IMG/VR virus record: IMGVR_UViG_3300035698_004564 | Coordinates: 1 to 24,673 of that record | Direction: 5' to 3' (one strand) | From: a virus | Length of the DNA: 24,673 nucleotides | Shown: in pieces, positions 3,076-21,265 of the stretch | Layout of the letters: every line of letters begins with the position of its first letter | How positions within the stretch are numbered: position 1 is the stretch's first letter | Made by a program: the position numbers and the translations under genes | The notes under the pieces: model-generated | What the model saw: only the letters and a program-made list of their open reading frames with translations | What the model was told of the DNA's origin: nothing | Database searches by the model: none

Positions 3076-3381
3076 ATGGACACCGGGACCAAGACGGACC
3101 CCCTCGCGGGGCTGATGACCACGGCGCAAGCGGCGAAGGAGATCGGAGTCAAGCCCGACACCCTTCTTCGAGCCATCACCGGCTTCCCGCAGTACGCGCC
3201 GGTCAAGCTCGGAGGACAGTTCATTTGGACGAGGAAGCAGGCGGACGCGGCGTGCGTTGTCGCCGTTCGCATCTCCTCCCGTCTGTGCCCGCACTGTGGG
3301 AACGACCCGGCGCCATACCGCAACGTGAAGCCGGCGAAGGATGCCGCCCCGAAGCCCGACGACAACGGCGGGACGGAATGA
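3076..3381 (+). CDS. HTH protein, excisionase/MerR-like, with a Cys knuckle
   Basis: A 101-residue protein. Residues 15-33 (MTTAQAAKEIGVKPDTLLR) match the pattern of a winged-helix or MerR/excisionase-type DNA-binding domain: T-x-x-x-A-A-x-x-(I/L)-G-V, then a second helix, then a beta hairpin with Trp (GGQFIWTRKQ). A CPHCG knuckle follows at 71-75, and the tail is Lys/Pro/Asp-rich. GAAGGAG at 3061-3067 lies 8 nt before the ATG. Its place just before the recombination genes would suit a regulator or a DNA-architecture protein. An excisionase role would need an integrase, which is not in this window. Confidence 0.6.
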   Translation: MDTGTKTDPLAGLMTTAQAAKEIGVKPDTLLRAITGFPQYAPVKLGGQFIWTRKQADAACVVAVRISSRLCPHCGNDPAPYRNVKPAKDAAPKPDDNGGTE

Positions 3382-4154
3382 CCGGCGACCTACTCCCCAA
3401 GCGAGTGGAAGCCCAACCGCTCGCCATGCCCGACCCGGCCCAACCGCTCGCCGTGACCGATCCGAACGACCCCCGAGCCCTCTTGCGGCTCGGGGTCGAG
3501 AAGGGCCTCGACGCCGCCGGCATCGTGAAGCTCGCGGAACTGTCGTGGAAGGATCAGGATCGGCGCGCCGCTCAGGAGTTCAACGACTGCCTGATGAGGT
3601 TCCAAGCCGAACTCCCGCCGCTCGCTAAGTCGAAGCGGGTAGACGTGGCGAGCAACAAGGGCTCGGGCTACAGCTATTGGTTCGCGCCCCTCGACAAGAT
3701 CGCTCAGAAGATCGCCCCCTACCTGCGGGATCTCGGGTTCGCTTACTCGTGGGACTCGGAGATTGCCGACGGGCTGATGCGGGTGTCCTGCACGCTCAGG
3801 CATGTCAACGGGCACAAGGAGAGCAGCTCCTTCGTCGCCCCGCAGGCGTCAGGCTCTCCCGCCATGACCACCATTCAGAAGCACGCGAGCAGCATGACCT
3901 ACGCCAAGCGGCAATCGCTCATCGCGGTGCTCGGGATCACCACCGCCGACGCGGACATGGACGGGAACGACCCGGTAGACCCGACCACGATCACCGCCGA
4001 GCAGGTGGCCACCCTCGAGTGCATGGCCGACGAGGTCAAGGCGGACATGCCGGTTTACCTCAAGTGGCTCGGGGTGGACCGGCTCGAGGATCTGTACGCG
4101 ACGACCTACAAGCAGGCCGTGCGGGGGCTCGAAGCGAAGCGGACGAAGCTATGA
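3378..4154 (+). CDS. erf: ERF-family single-strand annealing recombinase
   Basis: A 258-residue protein. Residues about 62-195 carry the ERF family pattern: a helix (FNDCLMRFQAELPPL), then SYWFAPLDKIAQKIAPYL near residue 99, LGFAYSWDS, conserved beta strands with G and H residues, and the hallmark MTYAKRQSLIAVLGI followed by TTADADMDGND near 173-197. ERF proteins, named for P22 Erf, bind and anneal single-stranded DNA during phage recombination and genome circularisation. The gene for a YqaJ-type exonuclease lies 235 nt downstream with one tiny gene between, the usual two-part recombination system. The C-terminal 60 residues are a helical extension. It starts with an ATGA overlap. Confidence 0.9.
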   Translation: MTGDLLPKRVEAQPLAMPDPAQPLAVTDPNDPRALLRLGVEKGLDAAGIVKLAELSWKDQDRRAAQEFNDCLMRFQAELPPLAKSKRVDVASNKGSGYSYWFAPLDKIAQKIAPYLRDLGFAYSWDSEIADGLMRVSCTLRHVNGHKESSSFVAPQASGSPAMTTIQKHASSMTYAKRQSLIAVLGITTADADMDGNDPVDPTTITAEQVATLECMADEVKADMPVYLKWLGVDRLEDLYATTYKQAVRGLEAKRTKL

Positions 4155-4393
4155 GCGAGCGCGGCTACGACAGCATGGGCCGCAACATGAATTGGGATCC
4201 GTGCTGCTTTGACTGTCCTCACCTCATCAAAGGAGGGCCGGACCGGACGGGGGGCTGGTGCGGCAATCCCGAGAACCGAGTCCCTCCCTCCGATGGTTGG
4301 CCGGATGGTTTCACCCCGTCCGTTGCCCCCGATGGCGGGTGTGATCAGCACCCTCGCGCAATCGCTCGCTGCTCCAAGGAGCCAACCTCATGA
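4151..4393 (+). CDS. Small Cys/Trp-rich protein between recombinase and exonuclease
   Basis: An 80-residue protein with CCFDC near residue 18, a Trp-Cys-Gly-Asn-Pro motif (GGWCGNP) and later cysteines near the end. The C-x-x-C, then W-C-x-N-P layout recalls the protein at 11795 (C-x-x-C-x-W-W, then G-x-C-x-x-x-P), so both may belong to a loose family of small metal-binding phage proteins. It overlaps erf and the exonuclease gene by 4 nt each, so the three are co-translated and may act together. Function is unknown. Confidence 0.6.
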   Translation: MSERGYDSMGRNMNWDPCCFDCPHLIKGGPDRTGGWCGNPENRVPPSDGWPDGFTPSVAPDGGCDQHPRAIARCSKEPTS

Positions 4394-5109
4394 TCCGCCA
4401 CGACATGGAGCAGGGGACGGATGCGTGGATGTCCGCTCGTTTAGCGATGCCCACAAGCTCCCAATTCCACCGCATCATCACCCCGAAGAAGCTCGAACCC
4501 GCCAAGGGACGGAGCTACGCCTACGAACTCCTCGCCGAGATGTACGTCGGTGAGGAGCAGGACCCGAGCGGGGGCGCCAACGAGTTCATGGTGCGCGGGA
4601 CCGTCATGGAGCCCGAGGCGGTGGCCTACTACGAGCTTCAGCGGGACGTAGCGTGCGATCTCGTCGGCTTCTGCACGACGGACGACGGTCAGGTGGGGTG
4701 CTCGCCCGATCGCCTTGTGGGCGAAGATGGGCTACTTGAGATAAAGTGCCCCTCGGCCAAAGTGCATGTCGCCTACCTGCTTGGCGAGAACGCCCACGCG
4801 CATCGGTGTCAGGTGCAAGGGCAAATGTGGGTGACCGGGCGGGAGTGGTGCGACCTGCTCATCTACTCCCCCTTCCTGCCCTCCTCGCTCGTGCGCCACT
4901 ACCCCGACCCTGAGTGGATCGCCCCCTTCGAGATAGCCCTAGCCGAGTTCCTCGCCTTCATGGAGGACGCGAGTTCCCGACTCGTGGCGAAGGGGCTGGT
5001 CCCGGAGGTGCGCCGGAAGCTCCCGGCGCCGGTTGACCGGACGACGCGCATCGACCCTGACGAGCCGCAACCCGACACGGCCATCGAGTGGCAAGGAGAC
5101 AACTCATGA
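4390..5109 (+). CDS. YqaJ / lambda-exonuclease-type 5'-3' recombination nuclease
   Basis: A 239-residue protein with the PD-(D/E)xK core of the YqaJ viral recombinase family: QGTDAWMSARL at the N-terminus (the QGT.EW..R signature), RGTVMEPEAVAYYE with E74, GCSPDRLV with D107, LLEIKCPS with E117 and K119, and the QVQGQMWV helix around 141-148. These residues coordinate metal and cut DNA. The enzyme is expected to resect double-strand ends so that the ERF protein can anneal the exposed strand. Length is close to lambda exonuclease (226 residues). It overlaps its neighbours by 4 nt on each side. Confidence 0.9.
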   Translation: MIRHDMEQGTDAWMSARLAMPTSSQFHRIITPKKLEPAKGRSYAYELLAEMYVGEEQDPSGGANEFMVRGTVMEPEAVAYYELQRDVACDLVGFCTTDDGQVGCSPDRLVGEDGLLEIKCPSAKVHVAYLLGENAHAHRCQVQGQMWVTGREWCDLLIYSPFLPSSLVRHYPDPEWIAPFEIALAEFLAFMEDASSRLVAKGLVPEVRRKLPAPVDRTTRIDPDEPQPDTAIEWQGDNS

Positions 5110-5285
5110 TCACCCTCTGGGCTCTCAAGATCGACGGCAAGCTCGGCGGCACCTTCCCTCGGCGCGACGATGCCCGCAAGATCGAACGCCGGATCAAGGA
5201 GGCGTGGGACGGGCTGGACTCCGGGACGCTGCCGGACCTGGACGTGGTGCGGATGGGTGAGGTGGTGGTGGGGAGGGAGGTATGA
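5106..5285 (+). CDS. Small hypothetical protein
   Basis: A 59-residue protein starting MITLWALKIDGKLGG: a beta hairpin, then a charged helix (DDARKIERRIKEAWDGL) and a C-terminal strand (VVRMGEVVVGREV). The small beta-alpha-beta layout is compact and plausible for a real fold, but I do not recognise it. It overlaps the exonuclease gene and the next gene by 4 nt each. Confidence 0.55.
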   Translation: MITLWALKIDGKLGGTFPRRDDARKIERRIKEAWDGLDSGTLPDLDVVRMGEVVVGREV

Positions 5286-5866
5286 CCGAACTTGAGAAGC
5301 TCCGCACGGAGAACGAGCGGCTGAAGGGGGAGCGAGACGACTCCCGCGAGACCTTCGAGAACATCATCGCGGAGTTCAAGGCCGCCGTGGACAAGGGCGT
5401 GGAGCTTGTCTACGGCAGTTGGCCGAAGGGGATGTGTTTGCCGCAGTCGATGGGCGATTTCGTGGATGTCATAGCTCGTTACGCCAACGAGTTGATGAGA
5501 GATCGAGACACCCTCACCACCCGCCTCGCCACCGCCGAGGGGGAGGTTGGGAGGTTGAGGGGGTTGCCCCAAGCCATCGAGGACTTCTACCACGAGGTCA
5601 AGGAGAATTGGGGAGGGGTCAAGACACGCGAAGAGTTCAAGCGGTTCGCCATGCACATCATCCACGGGATCGTGCGACCCGCCCTTACCCGCGCCGCCCT
5701 CTCCCGCGATGGTGGGGAGGAGAAGGGCTCCACCCCTGACGCGCTCCCACCACCCCCGGCCTGCACGGATGACTGCGGCTCCGAGGGAACGCCCACCGAG
5801 CGAGGGTGCGACGAGTGCGACATGCGGGAAGAGTGGCTGCCGACGAGGGAGGTGGGGGATGACTGA
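5282..5866 (+). CDS. Coiled-coil protein with C-terminal Cys cluster
   Basis: A 194-residue protein. Residues 2-40 form a charged coiled coil (LEKLRTENERLKGERDDSRE), followed by a central helical domain, another leucine-containing helix (LTTRLATAEGEVGRLRGL) and a C-terminal tail with four cysteines (CTDDC, CDEC). Short coiled-coil proteins of this composition are common phage accessory proteins of unknown role. The tail may be a zinc knuckle. A long ORF runs antisense here, but this strand has the coupled starts and ribosome binding sites. Confidence 0.6.
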   Translation: MTELEKLRTENERLKGERDDSRETFENIIAEFKAAVDKGVELVYGSWPKGMCLPQSMGDFVDVIARYANELMRDRDTLTTRLATAEGEVGRLRGLPQAIEDFYHEVKENWGGVKTREEFKRFAMHIIHGIVRPALTRAALSRDGGEEKGSTPDALPPPPACTDDCGSEGTPTERGCDECDMREEWLPTREVGDD

Positions 5867-6203
5867 CCGCGAGAGGGATGAGATTGTCACGGCTGCGATG
5901 CAGCAGGCCCTCTTGGGCGCAAGGGCCGCAGATAATCGAGGTATCGGAGACTTCGGGGAATCCGTTGCCCGCCACGCCCTCGCCCTCGCCATCCCCCCCG
6001 ACTCCATCGTCGTCAGGGCGGAGGGTCTCAAGCGGATCGAGGCCGCCATGAAGAAGGTCCGGCACTTCGCGCATCCTGGGTGGAACAACAGCCGAATGTG
6101 CGGGCTGAAAGATAGCGACGACCCGAAGGAACTGTGCATGCCATGCCTGTTCGGGCCGCTGATCGAGTGGCTCGCCAAGGCCCTCAAGGAGCCCGCCAAG
6201 TGA
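5859..6203 (+). CDS. Hypothetical helical protein with Cys motif
   Basis: A 114-residue, mostly helical protein (MTDRERDEIVTAAMQQALLG and onward) with a C-terminal section containing RMCGLKDSDDPKELCMPC, a four-residue-spaced Cys cluster, then an amphipathic helix. It overlaps the previous gene by 8 nt. A purine-rich GGGAGGTGGGGG stretch just before its ATG serves as ribosome binding site. No family is recognised. Confidence 0.55.
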   Translation: MTDRERDEIVTAAMQQALLGARAADNRGIGDFGESVARHALALAIPPDSIVVRAEGLKRIEAAMKKVRHFAHPGWNNSRMCGLKDSDDPKELCMPCLFGPLIEWLAKALKEPAK

Positions 6204-6397
6204 CCGCCCGCAACCCCCGCATCAACCCCCAACCCGACGACACCATCGAGGCGCGCGGCTTCACCTTCTGGGTGGACCGCGTGGATGGCGGCGAGGTCTA
6301 CGCGCTCAAGTACAAGACCGATCACCAGATCGACTTCAAGCGCATCCGCGTCTCGCTGGAGGTGTGGCGGCGGGATCTGGCGGAGGTGCCGGCGTGA
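6200..6397 (+). CDS. Small hypothetical protein, GTG start
   Basis: A 65-residue protein starting at GTG in a GTGA overlap. It reads like a small beta domain (EARGFTFWVDRVDGGEVYAL), ending in a strand and helix (RIRVSLEVWRRDLAEV). AAGGAG (6186-6191) lies about 8 nt upstream of the GTG. Many phages carry small proteins of this G-x-x-W-V and V-x-L-x-x-W layout near their replication genes, but no function is known to me. Confidence 0.55.
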   Translation: MTARNPRINPQPDDTIEARGFTFWVDRVDGGEVYALKYKTDHQIDFKRIRVSLEVWRRDLAEVPA

Positions 6398-6710: not shown

Positions 6711-6838
6711 GCCGGCGCGAGCAGTCCGACTTCTCGAAGGGCGTCGGCCAAGGGTGCGGTCAGGGGTGCGGGTGCCTGCTGCTGATCGGCGCCATCCTGC
6801 TTGGCCTGATGGTGCTTGGCGCGATGAGTGGGGGATGA
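6707..6838 (+). CDS. 43-aa membrane protein with Gly/Cys hinge
   Basis: ATG at 6707 (ATGA overlap) opens a 43-codon gene. It has a short charged N-terminus (SRREQSDFSKG), a glycine/cysteine motif (GQGCGQGCGC) and a hydrophobic helix (LLLIGAILLGLMVLGAM). The Cys-rich stretch directly before the helix could be a lipidation or metal site, though the order is not that of a signal-peptidase II lipobox at the N-terminus. Its stop overlaps the methyltransferase ATG at 6835. Function is unknown. Confidence 0.5.
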   Translation: MSRREQSDFSKGVGQGCGQGCGCLLLIGAILLGLMVLGAMSGG

Positions 6839-8127
6839 AAGGGGAGTGTCATGTGGATAGTCCTGCCCTCAGAGTGCTGTCCCTCTTCTCCGGCGTCGGA
6901 GGACTCGATCTCGGAGTCAGAATGGCTCTCCCGTCTCGCGTCGTCTGTTATGTGGAGGGGGAAGCATACGCCTGCGCGGTCCTGGCTCACCAGATGGAAG
7001 AAGCTCGCCTGGATCCAGCGCCTATTTGGACGGATATTACCACCTTCGACGGCAAGCCGTGGCGTGGCCGCGTGGATCTCATCGCTGGAGGTTTCCCCTG
7101 CCAAGACCTCTCCGTCGCCGGAAAGCGGGCCGGGATCCGAGAGGGCAAGCGGTCGGGGCTCTGGTCCGAGTTCGCCCGTATCATTGGCGAAGTGGAACCC
7201 CGGTTCGTGTTCGTGGAAAACGTCAGGGGTCTTGCCGGGGATGGACTTGGAGTGGTCCTTTCCGACCTCGCTGATCTCGGGTTCGATGCGGAATGGCTCT
7301 GTCTCCGAGCGTCCGAAGTGGGCGCCCCCCACCGTCGAGAGCGGATCTTCGTCCTGGCCTACCGCGACGGAGGCAGACTCTCGATCGAGCGGGAGCCGGT
7401 GCCTTCCGGGGAGCGGAGCGCACCCTGGCACGAGCCTGACCGATGCGGCGGTGAGGGATCCGAAGTGGGGAACCCCCCGGGCATCGGACGGGGAGAAGGG
7501 AGGGCCGAACATGGCATTCGGAGCGGGGGGCGATCCCCCGCCGAGCCAGGCGGCGAAGTGGCCGACGCCTCGCACGATCTCCGGGGGGGCGGAGAGCGCG
7601 GAGAGGAAGAAGGAACTCGGGAGGGACGAGAGCGGGGGCGGGGATCTTCAAGCGAAGGCGAGCGAGTGGCAGACTCCCGCGACAGACTCATTCCGCAGCC
7701 GGGGCGGGGACCGGAAGGACGAGAAGGGGCTGGATCAGCAGGCGAGAGCCTCCCTCTTTTCCCGCCCGGACCAGGAGACGCCGAAGGGTGGGCCTGGGTC
7801 CTCGAGCGGTGGCCCGAGCTCGCGCCCGCAGTCGATGCGGATTGCGACCGGGAACGGGGACTGGCCGACGCCGAACGCGCAGGGGCACACGAGCAATTGC
7901 GGAGGGGGCGAGGGACGGAAAGGGCCGCTGCGTCTGACTCTCCTCGGAATGGCGCGATCCCAGAAGCGCCGGCTCAACCCCCTCTTTGTCGAGTGGCTCA
8001 TGGGATGGCCCATCGGGTGGACCGACTGCGGGCCTGCGGGAACGGCGTCGTCCCCGCCCAAGCCGGTGCCGCTCTCCGAGAGCTCTGGAGGAGGATGAAC
8101 CTTGCCAATGACCGCGGGATCCTGTAG
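6835..8127 (+). CDS. C5-cytosine DNA methyltransferase (overlapped by a second ORF)
   Basis: A 430-residue protein with the ordered motifs of C5-cytosine methyltransferases: motif I LSLFSGVGGLDLG (15-27, AdoMet binding), motif IV GGFPCQDLS with catalytic Cys89, motif VI ENV (128-130), motif VIII RRERIF (167-172) and the closing motif CGNGVVPAQA (401-410). It would transfer a methyl group from AdoMet to cytosine C5 in a specific DNA site, probably to protect phage DNA. Residues about 180-300 should be the target recognition domain but are an odd Gly/Arg/Glu/Ser-rich sequence with VADA, VADS and LADA repeats. That is because the same DNA also encodes a second frame (see 6851-8098). Start 6835 overlaps the previous stop; a GTG at 6853 is an alternative. 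Confidence 0.85.
   Translation: MKGECHVDSPALRVLSLFSGVGGLDLGVRMALPSRVVCYVEGEAYACAVLAHQMEEARLDPAPIWTDITTFDGKPWRGRVDLIAGGFPCQDLSVAGKRAGIREGKRSGLWSEFARIIGEVEPRFVFVENVRGLAGDGLGVVLSDLADLGFDAEWLCLRASEVGAPHRRERIFVLAYRDGGRLSIEREPVPSGERSAPWHEPDRCGGEGSEVGNPPGIGRGEGRAEHGIRSGGRSPAEPGGEVADASHDLRGGGERGEEEGTREGRERGRGSSSEGERVADSRDRLIPQPGRGPEGREGAGSAGESLPLFPPGPGDAEGWAWVLERWPELAPAVDADCDRERGLADAERAGAHEQLRRGRGTERAAASDSPRNGAIPEAPAQPPLCRVAHGMAHRVDRLRACGNGVVPAQAGAALRELWRRMNLANDRGIL
6851..8098 (+). CDS. Overprinted ORF with W-x-T-P repeats ending LNPLFVEWLMGWPIGWT
   Basis: A 415-codon frame shifted +1 relative to the methyltransferase and lying wholly inside it. AAAGGGGAG ends 4 nt before its ATG. The product has at least five W-x-T-(P/A) units (TGG at 7355, 7466, 7559, 7667 and 7862) and the C-terminal phrase LNPLFVEWLMGWPIGWT. 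From memory these are hallmarks of a recurrent phage protein group linked to methyltransferases: WPTP or LPTP repeats with (A/V)SDG and KGGPN, then LNP.(F/W)VEW(L/M)MG.P.GW. By hand count over 7862-8029, 46 of 56 codons end in G/C in this frame against 33 of 56 in the methyltransferase frame, so this frame appears selected there. It could be a separate protein, or part of the enzyme reached by frameshifting. Function is unknown. Confidence 0.5.
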   Translation: MWIVLPSECCPSSPASEDSISESEWLSRLASSVMWRGKHTPARSWLTRWKKLAWIQRLFGRILPPSTASRGVAAWISSLEVSPAKTSPSPESGPGSERASGRGSGPSSPVSLAKWNPGSCSWKTSGVLPGMDLEWSFPTSLISGSMRNGSVSERPKWAPPTVESGSSSWPTATEADSRSSGSRCLPGSGAHPGTSLTDAAVRDPKWGTPRASDGEKGGPNMAFGAGGDPPPSQAAKWPTPRTISGGAESAERKKELGRDESGGGDLQAKASEWQTPATDSFRSRGGDRKDEKGLDQQARASLFSRPDQETPKGGPGSSSGGPSSRPQSMRIATGNGDWPTPNAQGHTSNCGGGEGRKGPLRLTLLGMARSQKRRLNPLFVEWLMGWPIGWTDCGPAGTASSPPKPVPLSESSGGG

Positions 8128-8130: not shown

Positions 8131-8264
8131 GGCCGACATGGAGACTGAGCCACTCTTGAGCCCATCATGCCGCCTTCCACCCGTCTCGACCCCGGCTCGG
8201 TCTCCAACTGTCCTCGGGGTTGGACTTGGGAGGTGGCATCGTGGGTTCCGGAGGGAGGAAGCCG

Positions 8265-9257
8265 ATGGGGTGGGACGGTAGATCAAAGGACGCCCTCCCG
8301 CGGATGGACTGGTATCCGCAGGACTACCTCGCAGACCGCAAGACCCGCAACATGACCCTCGAAGAGCACGGCGCGTACATGCTGCTGCTCCAGACCGAAT
8401 GGCTAGACGGTCCACTTCCCACCGACCTGGACGAGCTTGCCGACGCTCTATGCGTTGACCGCGAGACGTTCGACCGCATCTGGAGACGGGTCGGGAAGTG
8501 TTTCGACCTGGCCGGGGACACCCTCATCAACCGCCGACTGGAGCGCGAGAGAGAGAAGGCGCTGTCCTTCCGCGAAGAACGCCGAACCGCAGGCCGGAAG
8601 GGTGGCAAAGCTAAGGCTGTTTCTAGCAGAGCTAAAGCTGAGCTAAAGCAAAGCTCTGGCGAAGCTCTAGCAAAAGCTAGCCCGTCTCCGTCACCGTCTC
8701 CGTCTCCGTCTACATCACCGTCCAAAAAGAAACAGCATGCGCCTACGGCGCACTCCGACAAGTCGGAGATCACGAGCGAGTTCGAAGCCGACTTCTGGCC
8801 CGGAGTACCGAACAAGACCGGCAAGGGGGCGGCGAGGGTGGCCTATGCCAAGGCGAGGAAGACGGCAGGGAAGGAAGCGATCGTCAAGGGGCTGGAGAAG
8901 TTCCGAGCCTATGAGGACGGTCGGCGCTCACGAGACGGATACACCCCCCTTCTGCCTTCGACCTGGCTGAACCAGGAGCGATGGGCTGATGAGATCGGGA
9001 CCGGCAAGAGCTCCAACCCGGCCCCGCCCATCCAGATAGCAGACGTTCCCGCCGGCCACCCGGCCCACATGCGCTCCCGCGGCGGGTGGCAGGCCAACGG
9101 GAAGCAGTTCTACCTCTACCCGGACGGGCGCCTTGAGGAGAAGCGCGGCGAGAAGCGCATCACCGTCGAGACGCTCCGGTGGAGATCATCCGAGAACGGA
9201 GAGGCCGAGTGGATGCGGGATCGTGACTCGGCTGAGCGGAAGGGAGACGAGCGATGA
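8265..9257 (+). CDS. DUF1376 (YdaU-type) replication protein with internal repeat array
   Basis: A 330-residue protein. Residues 15-95 match the DUF1376 domain found in prophage replication modules: WYPQDYLADRKTRNMTLEEH, GAYMLLLQTEW, then helices ending LINRRLEREREKAL. Residues 108-155 are a Lys/Ala/Ser-Pro linker containing SPSPSPSPS. Residues about 165-225 form a C-terminal domain typical of phage replication proteins (DFWPGVPNKTGKGAARVAYA, then TPLLPSTWLNQERWADE). Such proteins are thought to bind the origin and help load the replicative helicase. The start at 8265 is chosen because GGAGGGAGG (8250-8258) lies about 6 nt upstream; an ATG at 8220 would add 15 residues and lacks this. The linker coincides with iteron-like DNA repeats at 8608-8684. 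Confidence 0.8.
   Translation: MGWDGRSKDALPRMDWYPQDYLADRKTRNMTLEEHGAYMLLLQTEWLDGPLPTDLDELADALCVDRETFDRIWRRVGKCFDLAGDTLINRRLEREREKALSFREERRTAGRKGGKAKAVSSRAKAELKQSSGEALAKASPSPSPSPSPSTSPSKKKQHAPTAHSDKSEITSEFEADFWPGVPNKTGKGAARVAYAKARKTAGKEAIVKGLEKFRAYEDGRRSRDGYTPLLPSTWLNQERWADEIGTGKSSNPAPPIQIADVPAGHPAHMRSRGGWQANGKQFYLYPDGRLEEKRGEKRITVETLRWRSSENGEAEWMRDRDSAERKGDER
8608..8684. repeat. Iteron-like array, 11-bp period, candidate replication origin
   Basis: Units AGCTAAGGC (8609), a degenerate TTTCTAGC (8620), AGCTAAAGC (8630), AGCTAAAGC (8641), AGCTCTGGC (8652), AGCTCTAGC (8663) and AAGCTAGC (8674) recur every 11 bp with few exceptions. Because 11 is not a multiple of 3, the protein is not repeated in register, so the repeat is kept at DNA level. 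In the 24 codons from 8610, only 7 end in G or C, unlike the rest of the gene. An array of short repeats spaced about one helical turn apart, inside the linker of a replication gene, mirrors the lambda origin inside gene O. Origin function is inferred. Confidence 0.6.
8682..8722. repeat. CCGTCT hexamer tandem repeat encoding Ser-Pro
   Basis: About six imperfect copies of CCGTCW (CCGTCT, CCGTCA) run directly after the iteron-like array and encode the SPSPSPSPS linker of the replication protein. Period 6 keeps the reading frame, so this repeat can vary in copy number without breaking the gene. Confidence 0.7.
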
Positions 9258-9565
9258 CCGACCTAGAGACAGCCGCTGTCGGGTGTCGAAGCTGTGGAGA
9301 GATGGGCTTCATTCTTGCGCCTACCAAGGCCGAGCCGAACATCGAACGGCAGTTTCTCTGCCCCACCTGCGCCCACACCGCCGAGAAGATCCGGGCGGCG
9401 AGGGAGGCCGAGCGGGAGAGGTGTACGGGGATCTGCAAGGCGCGGGCGGAGAGGTGGGAGCGGAAGGCGACGACGGAGTCGTACCGCGAAGAGTCAATCG
9501 CCGCGAGTGATCGCAGTACCGAAGCCGAGGCGATTGCTGATCTCATCCGGGAGCCCACCCCATGA
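9254..9565 (+). CDS. Cys-rich zinc-ribbon-like protein with charged helix
   Basis: A 103-residue protein: CRSCGEMGFIL at 11-21 and CPTCAHTAEKI at about 36 form a two-knuckle zinc ribbon, followed by a long Arg/Glu/Ala helix containing CTGICKARAERWERKA and ending in IADLIREP. The C-x-x-x-C-x-A-R-A-E helix and IADLIR ending resemble small phage proteins related to the Lar/restriction-alleviation type by appearance only; I cannot confirm that. It overlaps the replication gene and the nuclease gene by 4 nt each. Confidence 0.6.
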   Translation: MTDLETAAVGCRSCGEMGFILAPTKAEPNIERQFLCPTCAHTAEKIRAAREAERERCTGICKARAERWERKATTESYREESIAASDRSTEAEAIADLIREPTP

Positions 9566-9972
9566 CCACCCACCACCTAACCACCGAGGAGTACCAAGCC
9601 ATGACCAAGCGACCGAACAAGTACGGAGCCAAGAGGTGCAAGGAGGATGGTTTTTCCTTCGACTCGATGGTGGAGCGGGACTTCTACCTGTGGCTCCGAG
9701 AGGACCCGGTTGTGAACCACATTGACGTCCACCCGGTCTTCTCTCTGCCGGGCGGAATCCGGTTCACGGCGGACTTCATCGGGTGGTACACCAAGGACGC
9801 CCTCCCTCAATGCGAGGTGATCGACGTTAAGGGGATGCGACCGAAGACCGACTTCATCCGGATGTGGAAGCTCTTCAACGCCACCCACCCGCTCGGGCCG
9901 CTCGTGGTGGTGAGCCGGAAGAACGGCAAGTGGCGGGAGATGACCGACCCGGATGAGGTGCGGGGATGGTGA
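9562..9972 (+). CDS. DUF1064-type PD-(D/E)xK nuclease
   Basis: A 136-residue protein with the layout of DUF1064 phage proteins: NKYGAKRCKEDGFSFDSMVE at 19-38, where the family has K-Y-x-x-K and F-D-S-x-x-E, then RFTADFIGWY with D71, then EVIDVKG with D88 and K90, then FIRMWKLF. E38, D71, D88 and K90 form a plausible metal-binding nuclease site. Members are thought to be endonucleases acting on recombination or replication intermediates. The adjacent replication gene supports that. Start 9562 has GGGAG 8 nt upstream and the ATGA overlap; an ATG at 9601 with GAGGAG upstream would lose 13 residues but keep the domain. Confidence 0.75.
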   Translation: MTTHHLTTEEYQAMTKRPNKYGAKRCKEDGFSFDSMVERDFYLWLREDPVVNHIDVHPVFSLPGGIRFTADFIGWYTKDALPQCEVIDVKGMRPKTDFIRMWKLFNATHPLGPLVVVSRKNGKWREMTDPDEVRGW

Positions 9973-10910: not shown

Positions 10911-11798
10911 ATGCGTATCCTCGTCACCGGAGCCAAGGGCCACGTCGCCCGCTATCTCATCCCGCTCCTCAAGACCCTGGGCCACCACGTCTTCGAGCTG
11001 GACCACGTCCCCGACTTCAAACCGGACTACTACTGCGTGGATGTCCGCGACGGGGGGGACATGGCGCACGTCTTCCGCGAGACCATGCCGGACGTCGTCT
11101 ACCACCTCGCCGCGATGGTGAGCCGGGTCACCTGCGAGCGAGCTCCGGACGGCGCCACGGCGGTCAACGTGGGCGGCGCAGGCACCGTCGCCCGGCTCTG
11201 CGAGGAGTGGCAGTCCCGACTCATCCACATCAGCACGAGCGAGGTCTACGGTCCGCACATGCTCCGGATGTCGGAGGACGGGTACGCGCCGGAGCCAAAC
11301 AATCACTACGGGCTGACCAAGTATCTCGGCGAGCAGCTCGTCCGCTACCTCTGCCCGAGCGCGACCATCGTGCGCCCGTTCATGCTCTACAGCGAGAGCG
11401 AAGCGCCTCAGGACAACCGCTCGGCGATGATCCGGTTCATCCGGGACATCATCGCGGGCAACCGCTTCCACCTCCACACGGATACCACGCGCTCATGGTT
11501 GCACATGACGGACGCGGCCCGGCTCCTCGCTGCCCTCCTCGGGCCGGAGCGTGACATGCCCGATCTGCTGAACATCGGGAGCCCGGAGGTGAGGACCATG
11601 TTCGACCTCGTCAAGATGATCGAGGATGCGTCCGGGAAGACGGCGGTCTATGACGAGACACCGCTTCCGATCCAGATGACCGCGCACAAAGACCCGGTGC
11701 TCGACCGACAGGAGGGGCTCGGGGTGGATCTTGAGGTCTCGCTTGAGGAGGGCATCCGGCGGGTGGTTGGGGCGATGATGGATCGGAGCAGATCATGA
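10911..11798 (+). CDS. NAD(P)-dependent sugar epimerase/dehydratase (extended SDR)
   Basis: A 295-residue protein of the extended short-chain dehydrogenase type. The dinucleotide-binding loop is ILVTGAKGHVARYL (3-16), close to the G-x-x-G-x-x-(G/A) rule with Ala in the last place. VYHLAA lies at 63-68, STS at 108-110 provides the catalytic Ser/Thr, and YGLTK gives Tyr123 and Lys127. RPFMLY and SWLHMTDAAR match the substrate-binding and late signature segments. Members epimerise, dehydrate or reduce nucleotide sugars. Coupled with the glycosyltransferase before it, it probably makes that enzyme's sugar donor. Exact substrate is not deducible. Confidence 0.85.
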   Translation: MRILVTGAKGHVARYLIPLLKTLGHHVFELDHVPDFKPDYYCVDVRDGGDMAHVFRETMPDVVYHLAAMVSRVTCERAPDGATAVNVGGAGTVARLCEEWQSRLIHISTSEVYGPHMLRMSEDGYAPEPNNHYGLTKYLGEQLVRYLCPSATIVRPFMLYSESEAPQDNRSAMIRFIRDIIAGNRFHLHTDTTRSWLHMTDAARLLAALLGPERDMPDLLNIGSPEVRTMFDLVKMIEDASGKTAVYDETPLPIQMTAHKDPVLDRQEGLGVDLEVSLEEGIRRVVGAMMDRSRS

Positions 11799-12190
11799 GC
11801 GGGCGACCGGACTGGCTCAAGTGCGAGAACTGCGTGTGGTGGGAGCCTCCCTTTAGCCGGGACCTCCCTCCACGATCTTACGGGAACGTCGCCGAGAAGG
11901 CGCAGTACATGGCGAACCATTGCGGGGTGGACATATCCGACGAGAAGGTAGTCAAGTCGTGGGTCGCCATGCAATCCGACAACTTCCTGACGACCTTCAA
12001 GGGAATCGGCCCGATGATGGTCATGCGCCTTCGGCTCTACTCCGACTCTCCTGGGTTGGCGCGAGGGACATGCCGCGAAGTCCCATCGGGCAGGACGGTT
12101 GACCTGGGGTGGTGGTGCAGCCGGTTCCGCGAGCATTGGCCGCAGCGCGAGCCGCCCGACGTCGTCATGCCGCTACCGGATGCGCCATGA
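11795..12190 (+). CDS. Cys/Trp-rich small protein in the sugar cassette
   Basis: A 131-residue protein. CENCVWWEPP at 10-19 gives a CxxC pair next to two tryptophans; the C-terminal half has GTCREVPSGR and WWCSRFREHW, so four cysteines (two paired, two single) could hold one metal ion. This C-x-x-C-x-x-W, then G-x-C-x-x-x-P, then W-C-x-x-F layout recurs in small phage proteins as far as I remember, with no known function. It overlaps the epimerase and the next gene by 4 nt each. Confidence 0.6.
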   Translation: MSGRPDWLKCENCVWWEPPFSRDLPPRSYGNVAEKAQYMANHCGVDISDEKVVKSWVAMQSDNFLTTFKGIGPMMVMRLRLYSDSPGLARGTCREVPSGRTVDLGWWCSRFREHWPQREPPDVVMPLPDAP

Positions 12191-12405
12191 TCCTCTTGGA
12201 CGCGCTCTTCGCTGCCGCCTTCGTGGCCCTCGCCCTTCCGTTCGTCGTCGTCGGCTGCATCCTCTACATCGTCCTCGTGCTGATCCTCTCGGCTCTCTCG
12301 TTGGGCGCTTTGCTCTTTACGGCGTGGCTATGCGGGATATGCATGTTCATCCTCTTCGTGTTTCCCGCCAAAGCCCCCCGGACCAAACAGGAGCCCACCC
12401 CATGA
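12187..12405 (+). CDS. Small membrane protein, two or three helices
   Basis: A 72-residue protein, hydrophobic from residue 2 to about 60 (LLDALFAAAFVALALPFVVV, then ILYIVLVLILSALSLGALLF and onward), with a short basic tail (KAPRTKQEPTP) predicted to face the cytoplasm. It could be a membrane anchor for the cassette or a holin-like protein; its location between two sugar-transfer genes favours the former. Both ends overlap neighbours by 4 nt. Confidence 0.65.
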   Translation: MILLDALFAAAFVALALPFVVVGCILYIVLVLILSALSLGALLFTAWLCGICMFILFVFPAKAPRTKQEPTP

Positions 12406-13403
12406 CCAACCCAACCATAGCCCTCACCATGATCGTCAAGGGCTCGGCAAGCACCTCCCTCCGGCGAGCCCTGACCTCATGCCGGCACCTCTTCGACGAC
12501 GCCGTGGCCCTCGTGGACATGCGGCACGGGGACCAGGCCCTCGCCGTCCTCAAGGAGTTCGACGTCCGGGCGGATACCACCCCCTTCGAGATGTACACGG
12601 AGGACTGCATCCACTTCGCCAAGGCGCGTAACCGATCGTTCGAGGCCACCGAAGCCGACTGGTGCTTCTGGATCGACGCGGACGAGATCATGGAGTGCGG
12701 GGACGATCTGCGAGCCTACGTCAACGCGGCTCACGCCGAGGGGTGGCAGTCGGTCGCGGTCCAGTTCAAGACCTACTGCGGGGCGCACGCCGGGGACATG
12801 ACGCCGCAGATCCGGGCCGCGCGGCGGTCAGACTTCCGCATGAAGTTCCCGGTCCACAACATGCCCATCGGCATCAAGAGCCGGATCACCTGTGCGCTCA
12901 CGACCCTCCGGACGGACTACGCCGGGCAGATTGCCGACCGGATGAAGCGATCCGTACCCGCCCTCCGGAAGCTCTTCCGCGAAGGGGATGGCGGGGATCG
13001 GAAGGACGAGCAGGCTCACGCTGCCTACTTCCTCGCCCGGATGCACCTCGCCGCTCACGAGTACGCGGAGGCCGCACGGTGGGCGCGTGAGGTCGTGGCC
13101 ATCGAGCCGGACCACGAAGGCTACGCGGACATTCACCGCAACCTCGTGCAAGCCACGTTCATGACGGACGGCTTCGGGCCGGCGTGGAAGCTCTGCATCA
13201 ACGCGCTCGAGCGGCACCCGGGCATGATGGACCTGTGGCACCAACTCATGTCGATGGCGTTCTTCGCCTGGGTCAACGCTGCCGACAACCCGAAGAATGA
13301 GATATTCGGATGGGCGCAGACGCGGGCGCATCTCGGGAATGCCGAGCATGTGGCCGGGCTGATGGCGTTCCCGCTGAAGGTTACCTTGGAGGAGAAATCG
13401 TAA
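12402..13403 (+). CDS. Glycosyltransferase-like protein with C-terminal helical repeats
   Basis: A 333-residue protein. The N-terminal ~200 residues look like a GT2-type domain: ALTMIVKG at 7-14 (cf. the family's M-I-V-K-N-E), then ARNRSFEATEADWCFWIDAD at about 75-94, where the D-x-D of WIDADE would bind the metal/nucleotide. Residues about 205-310 are helical pairs resembling tetratricopeptide repeats (HAAYFLARMHLAAHEYAEAA, then REVVAIEPDHEGY). Small glycosyltransferases with this fused TPR layout occur in bacteria and phages. It probably acts on the same sugar pathway as the genes at 10228 and 10911. Confidence 0.75.
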   Translation: MTNPTIALTMIVKGSASTSLRRALTSCRHLFDDAVALVDMRHGDQALAVLKEFDVRADTTPFEMYTEDCIHFAKARNRSFEATEADWCFWIDADEIMECGDDLRAYVNAAHAEGWQSVAVQFKTYCGAHAGDMTPQIRAARRSDFRMKFPVHNMPIGIKSRITCALTTLRTDYAGQIADRMKRSVPALRKLFREGDGGDRKDEQAHAAYFLARMHLAAHEYAEAARWAREVVAIEPDHEGYADIHRNLVQATFMTDGFGPAWKLCINALERHPGMMDLWHQLMSMAFFAWVNAADNPKNEIFGWAQTRAHLGNAEHVAGLMAFPLKVTLEEKS

Positions 13404-18618: not shown

Positions 18619-20774
18619 GCGATCAAGACCAAGGCACAGGCGACGGCGAGCATGAGTTCTTTCTGCTCCGTGACGGCGAGACGGTCCGCGTAAGCGAAGC
18701 CGAGTTCAGAGCAGAGACGACCAAGAACCGAAAGACGAAGCTAACCATCAGCGCAGCGATCCGCGAAGCCGTGAGTTCAACCGCCTTCGACGTGATCCTC
18801 CTCGCCTCCGGCCTGAGCCAGAACAAGGTGGACGGCAAGCCCATCTACTACTCGCCGGAACTCCTCGCCCGCGACTACGCGGTCTTCGAGGGGGTGCCGG
18901 TCCGGGCCATCAAGCTCGGGGATGAGATGGCCCACACCCCGGACGGGATCAACAAGGCGATCCTCTCCGGCAACATCATCGGCGCGCTCGAAGGCGTTCA
19001 CGTGGAGAACGACAACCTCGTGGCTCGGCTCGTCATCCACGAGGGGGCCGACTTCTACGCCGGGCTCCTCAAGCTCTCACTCGACCGCGTGGCGGCAGGC
19101 GGTGCGGCCCTCGTTGGGCTCTCCATCGACGCCCTCACCAGCGGCTTCGAGACAACCATCCATGAAGGCCAAGAGGTGTCGGCTGTGCAGTCGCTCACCG
19201 GGCCTGCGACCGTAGACGTAGTCTCCTCTCCCGCGGCGGGTGGGGAGATACTTCGACTTGCGGCATCACTTCAAAAGGAGAATCAGATGCCCGAAGACAC
19301 GAAGAACCCGCAGGCCGGAGACAAGCCCGCGGTTCTCTCCAAGGAGGAACTCCAGAAGATCAAGGAGTCCGCCGTGGAGGAAGCCCTCAAGGCGCTCAAG
19401 GAAGAGCAGAGGGTCGCGGAAGAGGCCAAGGAGGCCATCCGCGAGAAGATCCGGGAAGCGACGAAGCTCCTGGAGACCAAGCTCGCCGAGTCGAACCTCA
19501 GCGAGAAGGCGCAGACCGTCGTCCGCGAGCAGTTCGTCAACTCGACTTTCGAGGAGAGCGCGCTCGACAAGGCCATCGGCCAGGTCCGCGATCTGCTCAA
19601 GGACGAGGACCCGAGCGGGGAGGTCCGTCTGCCCGAGATGGTGGTCGGCACCGAGCCCCGTGAGCGCTGCGAGGCCGCGCTCTACGACATGTTCATGCGG
19701 AACTCGTTCGACGAGACCCGGCTCAAGGCTCGCAAGGCCCTGGTCGAGTCCGGCGCCAAGCCCATCGCCAGCCTGCACCGCTTCACGCGGGAGGCCTTCG
19801 GGATCGACCTGGGCGACGCCGCCTTCGGGAGCGCGGAGAAGCGCAAGAAGCTGGTCGAGTCCCTCACCACGGCGAGCTGGACGGACATCTTCGGCGACAC
19901 CATGAACAAGGTGCTCATCGACGCCTTCCACGTCAACCCGTGGACGAGCTGGCGCAAGATCGTCCGCGTTCAGCCCCGCAAGGACTTCTCGACGATCCAC
20001 GCCATGCGGATGGGTGGCTACAAGAACCTCGACGCGGTCGCCGAGGGCGCGAACTACCCGGCGATGGACTCTCCGGGCGACGAGGAGCACGAGTGGACTC
20101 CCGCCACCTACGGCGGGACGGAAGACCTCACCCGCCGGATGATCCTCGCGGACGACGTGGGGGCCATCTCCCGCATCCCCACGGCGATGGCCTACGCCGC
20201 GGCACGGACGCTCTACGAGTTCGTCTACGACCAGCTCACCATCGCCGGGCAGCCGACGATGGACTACGACGCGACGACGCTCTTCGAGACGAGCCGTGCC
20301 TACAACGACAACCTCGGCACCACCGCGCTCGCCACGGCGGAGGTCCAGGTCGTCAGGTTGGCCATGCAGAAGTTCACCGACATGTCGAGCGCCAAGCGGG
20401 AGTCGGTCGAACCGCGCTACCTGCTCGTGCCGCCGGACCTGGAGGCCACGGCCTTCGGGATCGTCAAGCCCCTCAGCATGTACGCCCCCGGCGAGACCAC
20501 CGACCAGGCGTTCGTGCGGACCTTCAATCTGGAGGTCATCACGGTCCGTCACTGGACCAACGCGAAGGACCACGTCTACGTCGCCGACCCGGCGATCTTC
20601 CCCGGCTACCAGATGGGCTTCATCGGGGGCCGCGAGGAGCCGGAGATGTTCATCCAGGACAACGCCACGGTCGGCAGCCTGTTCGACCGGGACGCGATCA
20701 CCTACAAGATCAGGCACGAGTACGGTGGAAGTCCCATCGACCATCGCGCCTTCTACGCGGAGGACGTGGCCTAA
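18615..20774 (+). CDS. Protease-scaffold-major capsid polyprotein
   Basis: A 719-residue fusion. Residues about 45-215 resemble a capsid-maturation protease (VILLASGLSQN, IYYSPELL, a central His-containing strand EGVHVENDNLVARLVIHEG, GLSIDALTSG with candidate Ser170, and a closing VDVVSSPAAGGEILRLA). Residues 240-310 are an acidic/basic coiled coil typical of scaffolds (LQKIKESAVEEALKALKEEQ and on). Residues about 340-719 are the major capsid protein: ASWTDIFGDTMNKVLIDAF, KNLDAVAEG, and DLTRRMILADDVGAISRIP, a Mu T-like capsid motif. The protease presumably frees the capsid by cleaving around the scaffold. An internal in-frame start at 19287 with strong ribosome binding site would yield scaffold-capsid alone. 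Confidence 0.85.
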   Translation: MSDQDQGTGDGEHEFFLLRDGETVRVSEAEFRAETTKNRKTKLTISAAIREAVSSTAFDVILLASGLSQNKVDGKPIYYSPELLARDYAVFEGVPVRAIKLGDEMAHTPDGINKAILSGNIIGALEGVHVENDNLVARLVIHEGADFYAGLLKLSLDRVAAGGAALVGLSIDALTSGFETTIHEGQEVSAVQSLTGPATVDVVSSPAAGGEILRLAASLQKENQMPEDTKNPQAGDKPAVLSKEELQKIKESAVEEALKALKEEQRVAEEAKEAIREKIREATKLLETKLAESNLSEKAQTVVREQFVNSTFEESALDKAIGQVRDLLKDEDPSGEVRLPEMVVGTEPRERCEAALYDMFMRNSFDETRLKARKALVESGAKPIASLHRFTREAFGIDLGDAAFGSAEKRKKLVESLTTASWTDIFGDTMNKVLIDAFHVNPWTSWRKIVRVQPRKDFSTIHAMRMGGYKNLDAVAEGANYPAMDSPGDEEHEWTPATYGGTEDLTRRMILADDVGAISRIPTAMAYAAARTLYEFVYDQLTIAGQPTMDYDATTLFETSRAYNDNLGTTALATAEVQVVRLAMQKFTDMSSAKRESVEPRYLLVPPDLEATAFGIVKPLSMYAPGETTDQAFVRTFNLEVITVRHWTNAKDHVYVADPAIFPGYQMGFIGGREEPEMFIQDNATVGSLFDRDAITYKIRHEYGGSPIDHRAFYAEDVA
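19273..19289 (+). promoter_or_regulatory. Internal ribosome binding site and start inside the capsid polyprotein gene
   Basis: AAAAGGAG (19273-19280) is followed 6 nt later by ATG (19287), in frame with the 719-residue gene at Met225. It lies exactly at the end of the protease region (after RLAASLQKENQ). Translation from here would make a 495-residue scaffold-capsid protein, giving excess capsid subunits over protease, as nested starts do in lambda C/Nu3. Confidence 0.7.
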
Positions 20775-20779
20775 GGGCC

Positions 20780-20793
20780 GCGACCGGAAAGGA
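20780..20793 (+). repeat. Direct repeat GCGACCGGAAAGGA, copy 1 (leader of decoration gene)
   Basis: This 14-nt block recurs identically at 21266-21279. Each copy lies just upstream of an ATG and contains the ribosome binding site AAAGGA. It may be a duplicated translation-enhancing leader for two abundant virion proteins. Confidence 0.6.
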
Positions 20794-20801
20794 GCGAGCA
20801 G

Positions 20802-21206
20802 ATGGGAACCAACTACATCGACCTCAGCCCGGACAAGGGGGTCATCGAACTGGTCCTCTTCTCGGGGGTCCAGCAGTCGGCCACCGGGACTTCCGTCGCC
20901 AAGGCCATCGCCCCCTGCAAGGGGCGTGTCGTGGCGGTCGCCGCCTGGGTGGACGTCATCGGCGGGACCACCAAGTGCACCGACTACGACATCATCATCG
21001 AGAAGGGCTCCGACGATCTGCACACGGCCATCGCCGCGGTGGGCGCATCCACCAACGCCGGGCCGCAGATGGGCGCCCTTGTCTCCACGGCCACGGTTCT
21101 CGCGGTGGCAGCGGGTGACATTCTGCACCTGGACGCGACCCTCGCGGGGGGCGCATCGCCGACCCTCGACGGTATCCAGGGTCGGGTCTGGATCGCCCGC
21201 GAGTAG
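20802..21206 (+). CDS. Candidate capsid decoration/stabilisation protein
   Basis: A 134-residue protein, rich in Gly, Ala, Thr and Val and mostly beta by pattern (VIELVLFSGVQQSATGTSVA, VVAVAAWVDVIGG, DILHLDATLAGGASPTLDGI). Position directly after the major capsid gene, small size and composition fit a head decoration protein that clamps the expanded capsid. I see no family signature. AAAGGAG (20788-20794) lies about 7 nt before the ATG, inside a 14-nt block repeated before the next gene. Confidence 0.5.
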   Translation: MGTNYIDLSPDKGVIELVLFSGVQQSATGTSVAKAIAPCKGRVVAVAAWVDVIGGTTKCTDYDIIIEKGSDDLHTAIAAVGASTNAGPQMGALVSTATVLAVAAGDILHLDATLAGGASPTLDGIQGRVWIARE

Positions 21207-21265
21207 CACCACGACCTCATGAGCAAAGGGGGCGGGGTTCACGCTCCGCTCCCATGCTCGGGGTT

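Follow-up and report, generated by a model that had tools for sequence, protein, structure and literature searches.

Do two open reading frames that overlap almost completely in a phage genome encode two proteins with separate tasks, one protein made by changing frame, or two parts of a single enzyme? This question is raised by a methyltransferase locus on virus record IMGVR_UViG_3300035698_004564, analysed here as a stretch of 24,673 bases that we call the window. To our knowledge, long overlaps on the same strand with selection on both frames have rarely been established in DNA phages and bacteria. Annotation software mostly drops one of two overlapping frames.

Motif content of the two frames

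Frame 0, termed alpha, occupies positions 6835-8127 on the plus strand up to and including the stop codon at 8125-8127 (+), while the +1 frame, termed beta, extends from an ATG at 6851 to position 8098 (6851-8098, +; 415 amino acids) and is contained within alpha at an offset of +1. Both frames are open exactly as a first-pass annotation, made from the letters alone, had claimed. Candidate starts for alpha are ATG 6835 and GTG 6853, with a further GTG upstream at 6754. GTG 6853 is more likely than ATG 6835; its codon (6853-6855) overlaps the beta ATG (6851-6853) in an ATGTG twin start (6851-6855, +), and the Shine-Dalgarno-like site AAAGGGGAG at 6838-6846 (+), already noticed as a ribosome binding site before the +1 frame, is able to serve both starts. 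Twin starts and sites of this kind also occur in relatives.

The methyltransferase is flanked by recombination and replication genes, namely Erf (3225-4154), a YqaJ exonuclease (4390-5109), replication initiation (8220-9257) and a resolvase (9562-9972), and by head genes (terminase, portal). Elsewhere in the window, a gene for an NAD-dependent epimerase (10911-11798) adjoins one for a family-2-like glycosyltransferase (12099-13403), which are possible sugar modification genes.

Alpha is the catalytic chain of a C5-cytosine methyltransferase. It carries the catalytic motifs I, IV (PCQ), VI (ENV) and VIII (RRER) in order, which meets the criterion for this enzyme class, and also motif X, CGNGVVP, at 8035-8055 (+), in which G402 and N403 are invariant among alpha sequences. 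PF00145 (E 3.4e-37, residues 40-210 only) and TIGR00675 (107 bits against a cut-off of 100.65) see no more than the first half of frame 0 with motifs I-VIII, and phrog_363 of the PHROGs collection matches with E 3.3e-68; a Pfam match to Bim_N fell below its cut-off and was rejected as spurious. The predicted alpha model demonstrably fits M.HhaI (Z 23, 201 of 327 residues aligned). It is confident at residues 1-190 and at motif X, whereas residues 194-302 (7414-7740, +), a bridge across the beta modules described below, are predicted to be disordered (pLDDT <50), and this bridge is stop-free yet changes fastest at codon position 1. Downstream of it, the element PPGPGDAEGWAWVLERWPELAPAV (7762-7833, +) is conserved in the alpha frame, with column z values of 9.6-16.3 for alpha given beta.

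The main frame had been credited with all key motifs. This does not hold for motif IX, LNPLFVEWLMGWPIGWT, which is absent from frame 0 and is located in the +1 frame at 7973-8023 (+), where it is nearly invariant in beta; near this position the alpha frame reads HGMAHRVDRLR. Motif X begins 62 nt downstream of the start of motif IX, and a requirement that IX and X stand on one chain is not met, X being in alpha and IX in the +1 frame.

The proposal that the +1 product represents a recognisable protein type was borne out by matches to phrog_1008 (E 4.8e-19), phrog_27243 (E 1.1e-17) and phrog_26627, the latter two labelled 'unknown function' in PHROGs. Near its end (positions 294-321 of 329), phrog_1008 continues into motif X of frame 0. 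Searches of Pfam and NCBIfam revealed no family matching beta, a PDB sequence search with a beta profile returned chance matches only, and the predicted beta model is poor (mean pLDDT 56.5) and found no structural match in the PDB. Between its N-terminal extension and motif IX, beta contains five WxTP-type modules (7355-7885, +), which we propose as target-recognition domain (TRD). In relatives, zero to seven WxTP copies spaced by about 34 amino acids lie between motifs VIII and IX of beta, their number correlates with length (r = 0.91), and the pattern occurs 0.07 times per sequence in the alpha frame versus 3.3 times in beta. Counts frequently diverge among relatives that are rather close: where alpha similarity is intermediate, 40% of pairs agree in number, and the range within Paracoccus is 1 to 6. 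By analogy with multispecific phage methyltransferases (PMC8936443), we infer that these are tandem recognition modules; DNA recognition has not been shown, and the label 'TRD' rests on position, selection and fusion, with no structure to support it. In the N-terminal half of beta an open frame is maintained and conserved positions are present. Residues 21-60 (6911-7030), which overlap the early motifs of alpha, form a confidently predicted helical segment (pLDDT 78-89) with a conserved GK..P...W...WK...W...L.G pattern.

Selection on both frames

Two antisense open frames of the window, at 4958-6325 (-, 455 amino acids) and 19266-21242 (-, 658 amino acids), are probably chance products of GC-rich DNA. 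Since the genome is GC-rich and has such frames, the length of an open frame alone is no proof, and the evidence was taken from homologues. When the window was considered by itself, the +1 frame stayed open in 23% of synonymous reshufflings of alpha, which is not significant, and ORF length in the window was rejected as evidence on these grounds; conversely, alpha was open in 0 of 200 synonymous shuffles of beta, which is significant. The 23% and the long chance frames of the window are what can be said for the view that high GC content has left the +1 frame open by chance and that its conservation is merely a by-product of alpha.

The relatives argue against this view. Beta was open over the whole overlap, up to the start of alpha, in 140 of 143 loci, where about 5 were expected from synonymous alpha shuffles. 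The middle of alpha was open in 143/143 loci against 12.7 expected from beta codon shuffles; this set had been preselected for alpha passing motif IX, and without that selection the figure was 144/156. Stops are avoided in both frames: the +1 frame contained 0.15 stops per sequence over motifs I-VIII (1.89 expected) and alpha contained 0.00 over its C-terminal half (4.09 expected), and no comparable depletion was present in any other frame on either strand.

The rates of change at the three codon positions disclose which frame is under selection in which part of the gene. As TRD regions may recombine and pairs within one set are not fully independent, rates were compared within regions. Over motifs I-VIII, 34 disjoint pairs differed at alpha positions 1/2/3 by 0.116/0.061/0.262; the same pairs gave 0.332/0.122/0.092 in the middle, 0.323/0.113/0.141 before motif IX and 0.105/0.028/0.102 over IX-X. 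The fast wobble site is that of alpha in the first part and that of beta in the middle, and both frames are slowed over IX-X. Paracoccus repeated the picture with 0.128/0.092/0.312, then 0.238/0.074/0.079, and 0.059/0.021/0.073 over IX-X. The selected frame is alpha over motifs I-VIII, beta over the middle and both over IX-X. Together with the shuffles, the avoidance of stops and the Paracoccus repeat, a wobble signature that belongs in the middle to the +1 frame and not to alpha has already refuted an origin of the open frame by chance, for which practically no probability remains.

Conservation of the starts points in the same direction. Alpha and beta begin no more than 4 nt apart in 71 of 115 non-redundant loci, compared with 6/115 for the third (+2) frame used as a control; the twin starts take the forms ATGTG and NTGaATG, and a Shine-Dalgarno-like site lies upstream in 55 of the 71. 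At the amino acid level, some beta residues are retained where alpha varies; one example is a beta leucine kept in 36 of 46 sequences in which alpha has alanine, isoleucine or serine. Identity in the +1 frame given alpha exceeded expectation (0.291 versus 0.228), but control frames also showed some excess (0.270 versus 0.226), and this measure, although real, was rejected as main proof. Selection on the N-terminal half of beta is clear from stops and starts and modest at the amino acid level.

The first-pass annotation had suggested a dual-coding gene with the +1 frame dominant towards the 3' end, and shuffles, stop avoidance and codon-position rates all agree with it. Its count of G/C-ending codons over 7862-8029 (46/56 for the +1 frame and 33/56 for the enzyme frame) was reproduced almost exactly (46/56 and 32/55), and the two frames are alike over the 5' half (57/82 versus 52/82 and 65/87 versus 62/86).

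Distribution and rearrangement of the layout

Related loci were collected from IMG/VR with alpha, beta and beta-alignment queries and from GTDB with the beta-alignment query against one genome per species, and the layout was called by an alpha profile and motif patterns with the criterion that motif IX lies in the +1 frame and alpha is open past IX. It should be kept in mind that these loci are mutually related and were partly picked by similarity to the alpha or beta frames. The layout of the window was observed in 272 of the 325 loci, a set drawn from viral contigs, bacterial genomes and annotated records that also includes the window (alpha query, 59/80; beta query, 69/80; bacterial or archaeal, 67/80; last set, 73/78); motif coverage was full in 261 loci. 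Most of the loci outside the layout are motif-pattern misses or variant layouts. Among the hosts are Alphaproteobacteria, Myxococcus, Planctomycetota, Bacteroidota, Acidobacteriota, Chloroflexota and archaeal bins. In Paracoccus, the genus of locus L214, a query with alpha only matched 45 of 125 genomes, and all 30 loci that were read had the layout. The frame offset is +1 throughout, except for two broken-frame loci and a few fused ones, and both deep branches of a catalytic-region tree are covered by the layout, with scattered departures. Alpha is interrupted by a stop between motifs VIII and X in about 5% of loci, some of which are perhaps real variants and others errors or decay.

Five annotated records share the layout of the window, and every one of them lists a single frame, alpha in two cases and beta in three. 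The catalytic alpha frame was missed in the beta-only public annotations L004:1423-2556, L006:1408-2157 and L329:1408-2499, which bear the names 'cytosine-specific methyltransferase', 'DNA methyltransferase' or 'hypothetical protein'.

The layout of the window is one of six variants. At one end of the series stand single chains, L007 (RitaG) and L084; in RitaG the alpha profile covers positions 16-352 and the beta profile positions 204-327 of the same protein. In a second variant, found in Stasia, TaylorSipht and Lymara, alpha with motifs I-VIII is followed, with small overlap, by a beta that contains IX and X; Stasia gp75, TaylorSipht gp41 and Lymara gp77 lie in the +1 frame and match beta plus the motif X region of alpha. 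The third (L061, L064, L259, L285, L221) is the same except that beta fully overlaps alpha, and the fourth is that of the window. In the fifth (L136, L115, L186, L189, L192), alpha breaks off directly behind motif VIII, a small ORF with a conserved ATG holds motif X together with a PPGP element, and beta is whole; the PPGPGDAEGWAWVLERWPELAPAV element is present here, in the L136 group, on a separate alpha2 chain. In the sixth (L074 and the actinobacterial L219, L223, L239, L241 and L245), IX and X are in alpha and TP modules in the +1 frame, which terminates within a few codons of motif IX. TIGR00675 covers L074 nearly end to end (1-321 of 329), and its LNPDWVEWLMGYP and LGNSVVP align with motif IX, RKLHPRECARVMGYP, and motif X of M.HhaI, an alignment that is weak alone (3.2 bits). 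A classification of L074 and the L219 group as single-chain enzymes was rejected, their TP modules remaining in the +1 frame. It follows from the series that what remains out of frame is the module region, and that either chain can carry IX and X. The idea of repeated frame switching holds to the extent that lineages differ in the chain on which motifs IX and X are placed; the offset itself remains +1. In L025, L026 and L039, the start of alpha is in frame with the beta modules or motif IX and motif X lies in another frame, a one-base shift that could reflect real fusion, decay or sequencing error.

The first-pass annotation had named as a refuting case homologues in which the +1 frame is broken and the enzyme intact. 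This check did not refute the proposal: relatives that share the layout keep the +1 frame open, while the two true single-chain relatives have it interrupted by stops, 6 in L007 and 9 in L084. The single chains also bear on the suggestion that two unrelated functions are overprinted, a complete methyltransferase in frame 0 and an independent phage protein in +1. That beta has its own start and matches families of unknown function would suit such independence, but the alpha and beta parts are joined in these relatives, motif IX is found in the +1 frame and not in frame 0, and no beta without alpha was encountered, barring two contigs without an alpha match; on one of these, L161, nothing but the gene's 3' end is present. 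We regard independent functions as very improbable.

A programmed frameshift, which had also been put forward, would have ribosomes leave alpha behind motif VIII, read the WxTP modules and IX in the +1 frame and return for X, yielding one chain. The resulting order of I-VIII, TRD, IX and X is indeed that of single-chain relatives such as RitaG, and a single shift would do where both IX and X belong to beta (L061, L064, Stasia). The main layout, however, requires two opposing shifts; beta has a separate 5' start and Shine-Dalgarno site, conserved as a twin start; its frame is open over motifs I-VIII, which a shift would not need; alpha of the L136 group stops right after motif VIII, with a separate ATG for motif X; and M.EcoHK31I consists of two polypeptides (PMC3404938). 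A frameshift is thus disfavoured and retains only a small probability.

The proposed two-subunit enzyme and known systems

The first-pass annotation did not recognise the two frames as parts of a single enzyme, which the presence of motif IX solely in the +1 frame indicates. We consider it highly probable that two fully overlapping frames of the locus specify the subunits of a DNA cytosine-C5 methyltransferase, with alpha as catalytic chain and beta as small domain. This reading is based on the +1 frame ending in the very motif that a C5-methyltransferase without small domain is missing, and on the single-chain relatives that carry the alpha and beta parts in one protein. Ribosomes would start at the adjacent ATG 6851 (beta) and GTG 6853 (alpha) behind one Shine-Dalgarno site. 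Alpha would fold as the catalytic domain and provide SAM binding, the PCQ nucleophile, ENV and RRER as well as the helix of motif X; beta would contribute the missing small domain, made up of motif IX and a target-recognition region formed by the WxTP modules; and both may assemble into one active enzyme, which probably shields the phage DNA from host restriction. In the middle of the gene, selection would maintain the sequence of beta, alpha merely staying open as a bridge to motif X. The layout and its conservation, the frame-specific selection and the structural match of alpha are demonstrated, whereas translation of both chains, their assembly, the reading of DNA by the modules, methylation activity and the biological role are inferred without expression or activity data. 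The poor beta model suggests some caution, as does the outcome of the codon test, which is opposite to the prediction for M.EcoHK31I, where the TRD was placed in the large subunit (PMC3404938).

The same hidden arrangement is present in hundreds of phages and bacteria, and the annotated records examined list one protein of two. Many phage 'DNA methyltransferase' genes may therefore be mis-described, and they would appear inactive if cloned with beta disturbed. The pair is directly testable as an enzyme in which each frame would supply half of the active site, and the switch of the codon-position signature within one gene offers a clean case for how overlaps arise and get undone. A wider picture can be offered only tentatively, as the case for it falls a little short of even: dual-coded methyltransferases would form a large class that has mostly escaped annotation, with beta as a recognition subunit that is modular and can be swapped. 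Phages and bacteria would then change specificity by gain or loss of 34-amino-acid WxTP units in the +1 frame, frame 0 would have no task beyond staying open as far as motif X, IX and X would hop between chains, and the overlap would bind the subunits inseparably.

Two-polypeptide C5-methyltransferases are already known, with M.AquI and M.EcoHK31I as precedents (PMC3404938). We did not find in the literature searched the prevalence of the layout, the overlap from start to motif IX with twin starts, a modular beta without Pfam or NCBIfam model, the change of the selected frame or the variant series. Our literature search yielded no paper on such an overlap in phages, which is weak evidence as most subscription journals were outside the search.

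Paracoccus prophages encode two m5C enzymes with relaxed specificity (PMC3925955) that have no established tie to the alpha/beta family. In multispecific phage methyltransferases, tandem modules let phages gain several specificities (PMC8936443). Like the enzymes of SPbeta, phi3T and H2, the present family has tandem modules that vary in number and stand between motifs VIII and IX; theirs are part of one enzyme chain, whereas those of the window, for which DNA reading has not been shown, lie in the overlapping beta. M.AquI has motifs I-VIII on one chain and IX on the other (PMC3404938), a layout shared by the relatives Stasia and TaylorSipht. The second chain of M.AquI also has X, a criterion that the window does not meet, its motif X being in the alpha frame and its frames overlapping almost fully. 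With the monomeric M.HhaI, M.HaeIII and Dcm (PF00145, TIGR00675) alpha shares the catalytic fold (Z 20-23), but the small domain of the window is on a second chain in a different frame.

The closest parallel in chain composition is M.EcoHK31I (YGGCCR), reportedly described as a two-polypeptide C5-methyltransferase by Lee et al. in 1995, whose small chain of about 176 amino acids reportedly lies in a different frame within the large one, as beta does within alpha. M.EaeI is a further system of this kind. The large subunit of M.EcoHK31I has motifs I-VIII and X and the small subunit IX (PMC3404938), the same division as between the two chains of the window, which, judged from this match and with homology of the small chains untested, would work like M.EcoHK31I. 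Unlike the small chain of that enzyme, beta of the window has 415 amino acids, starts beside alpha, spans the whole gene and contains tandem WxTP modules that are under selection.
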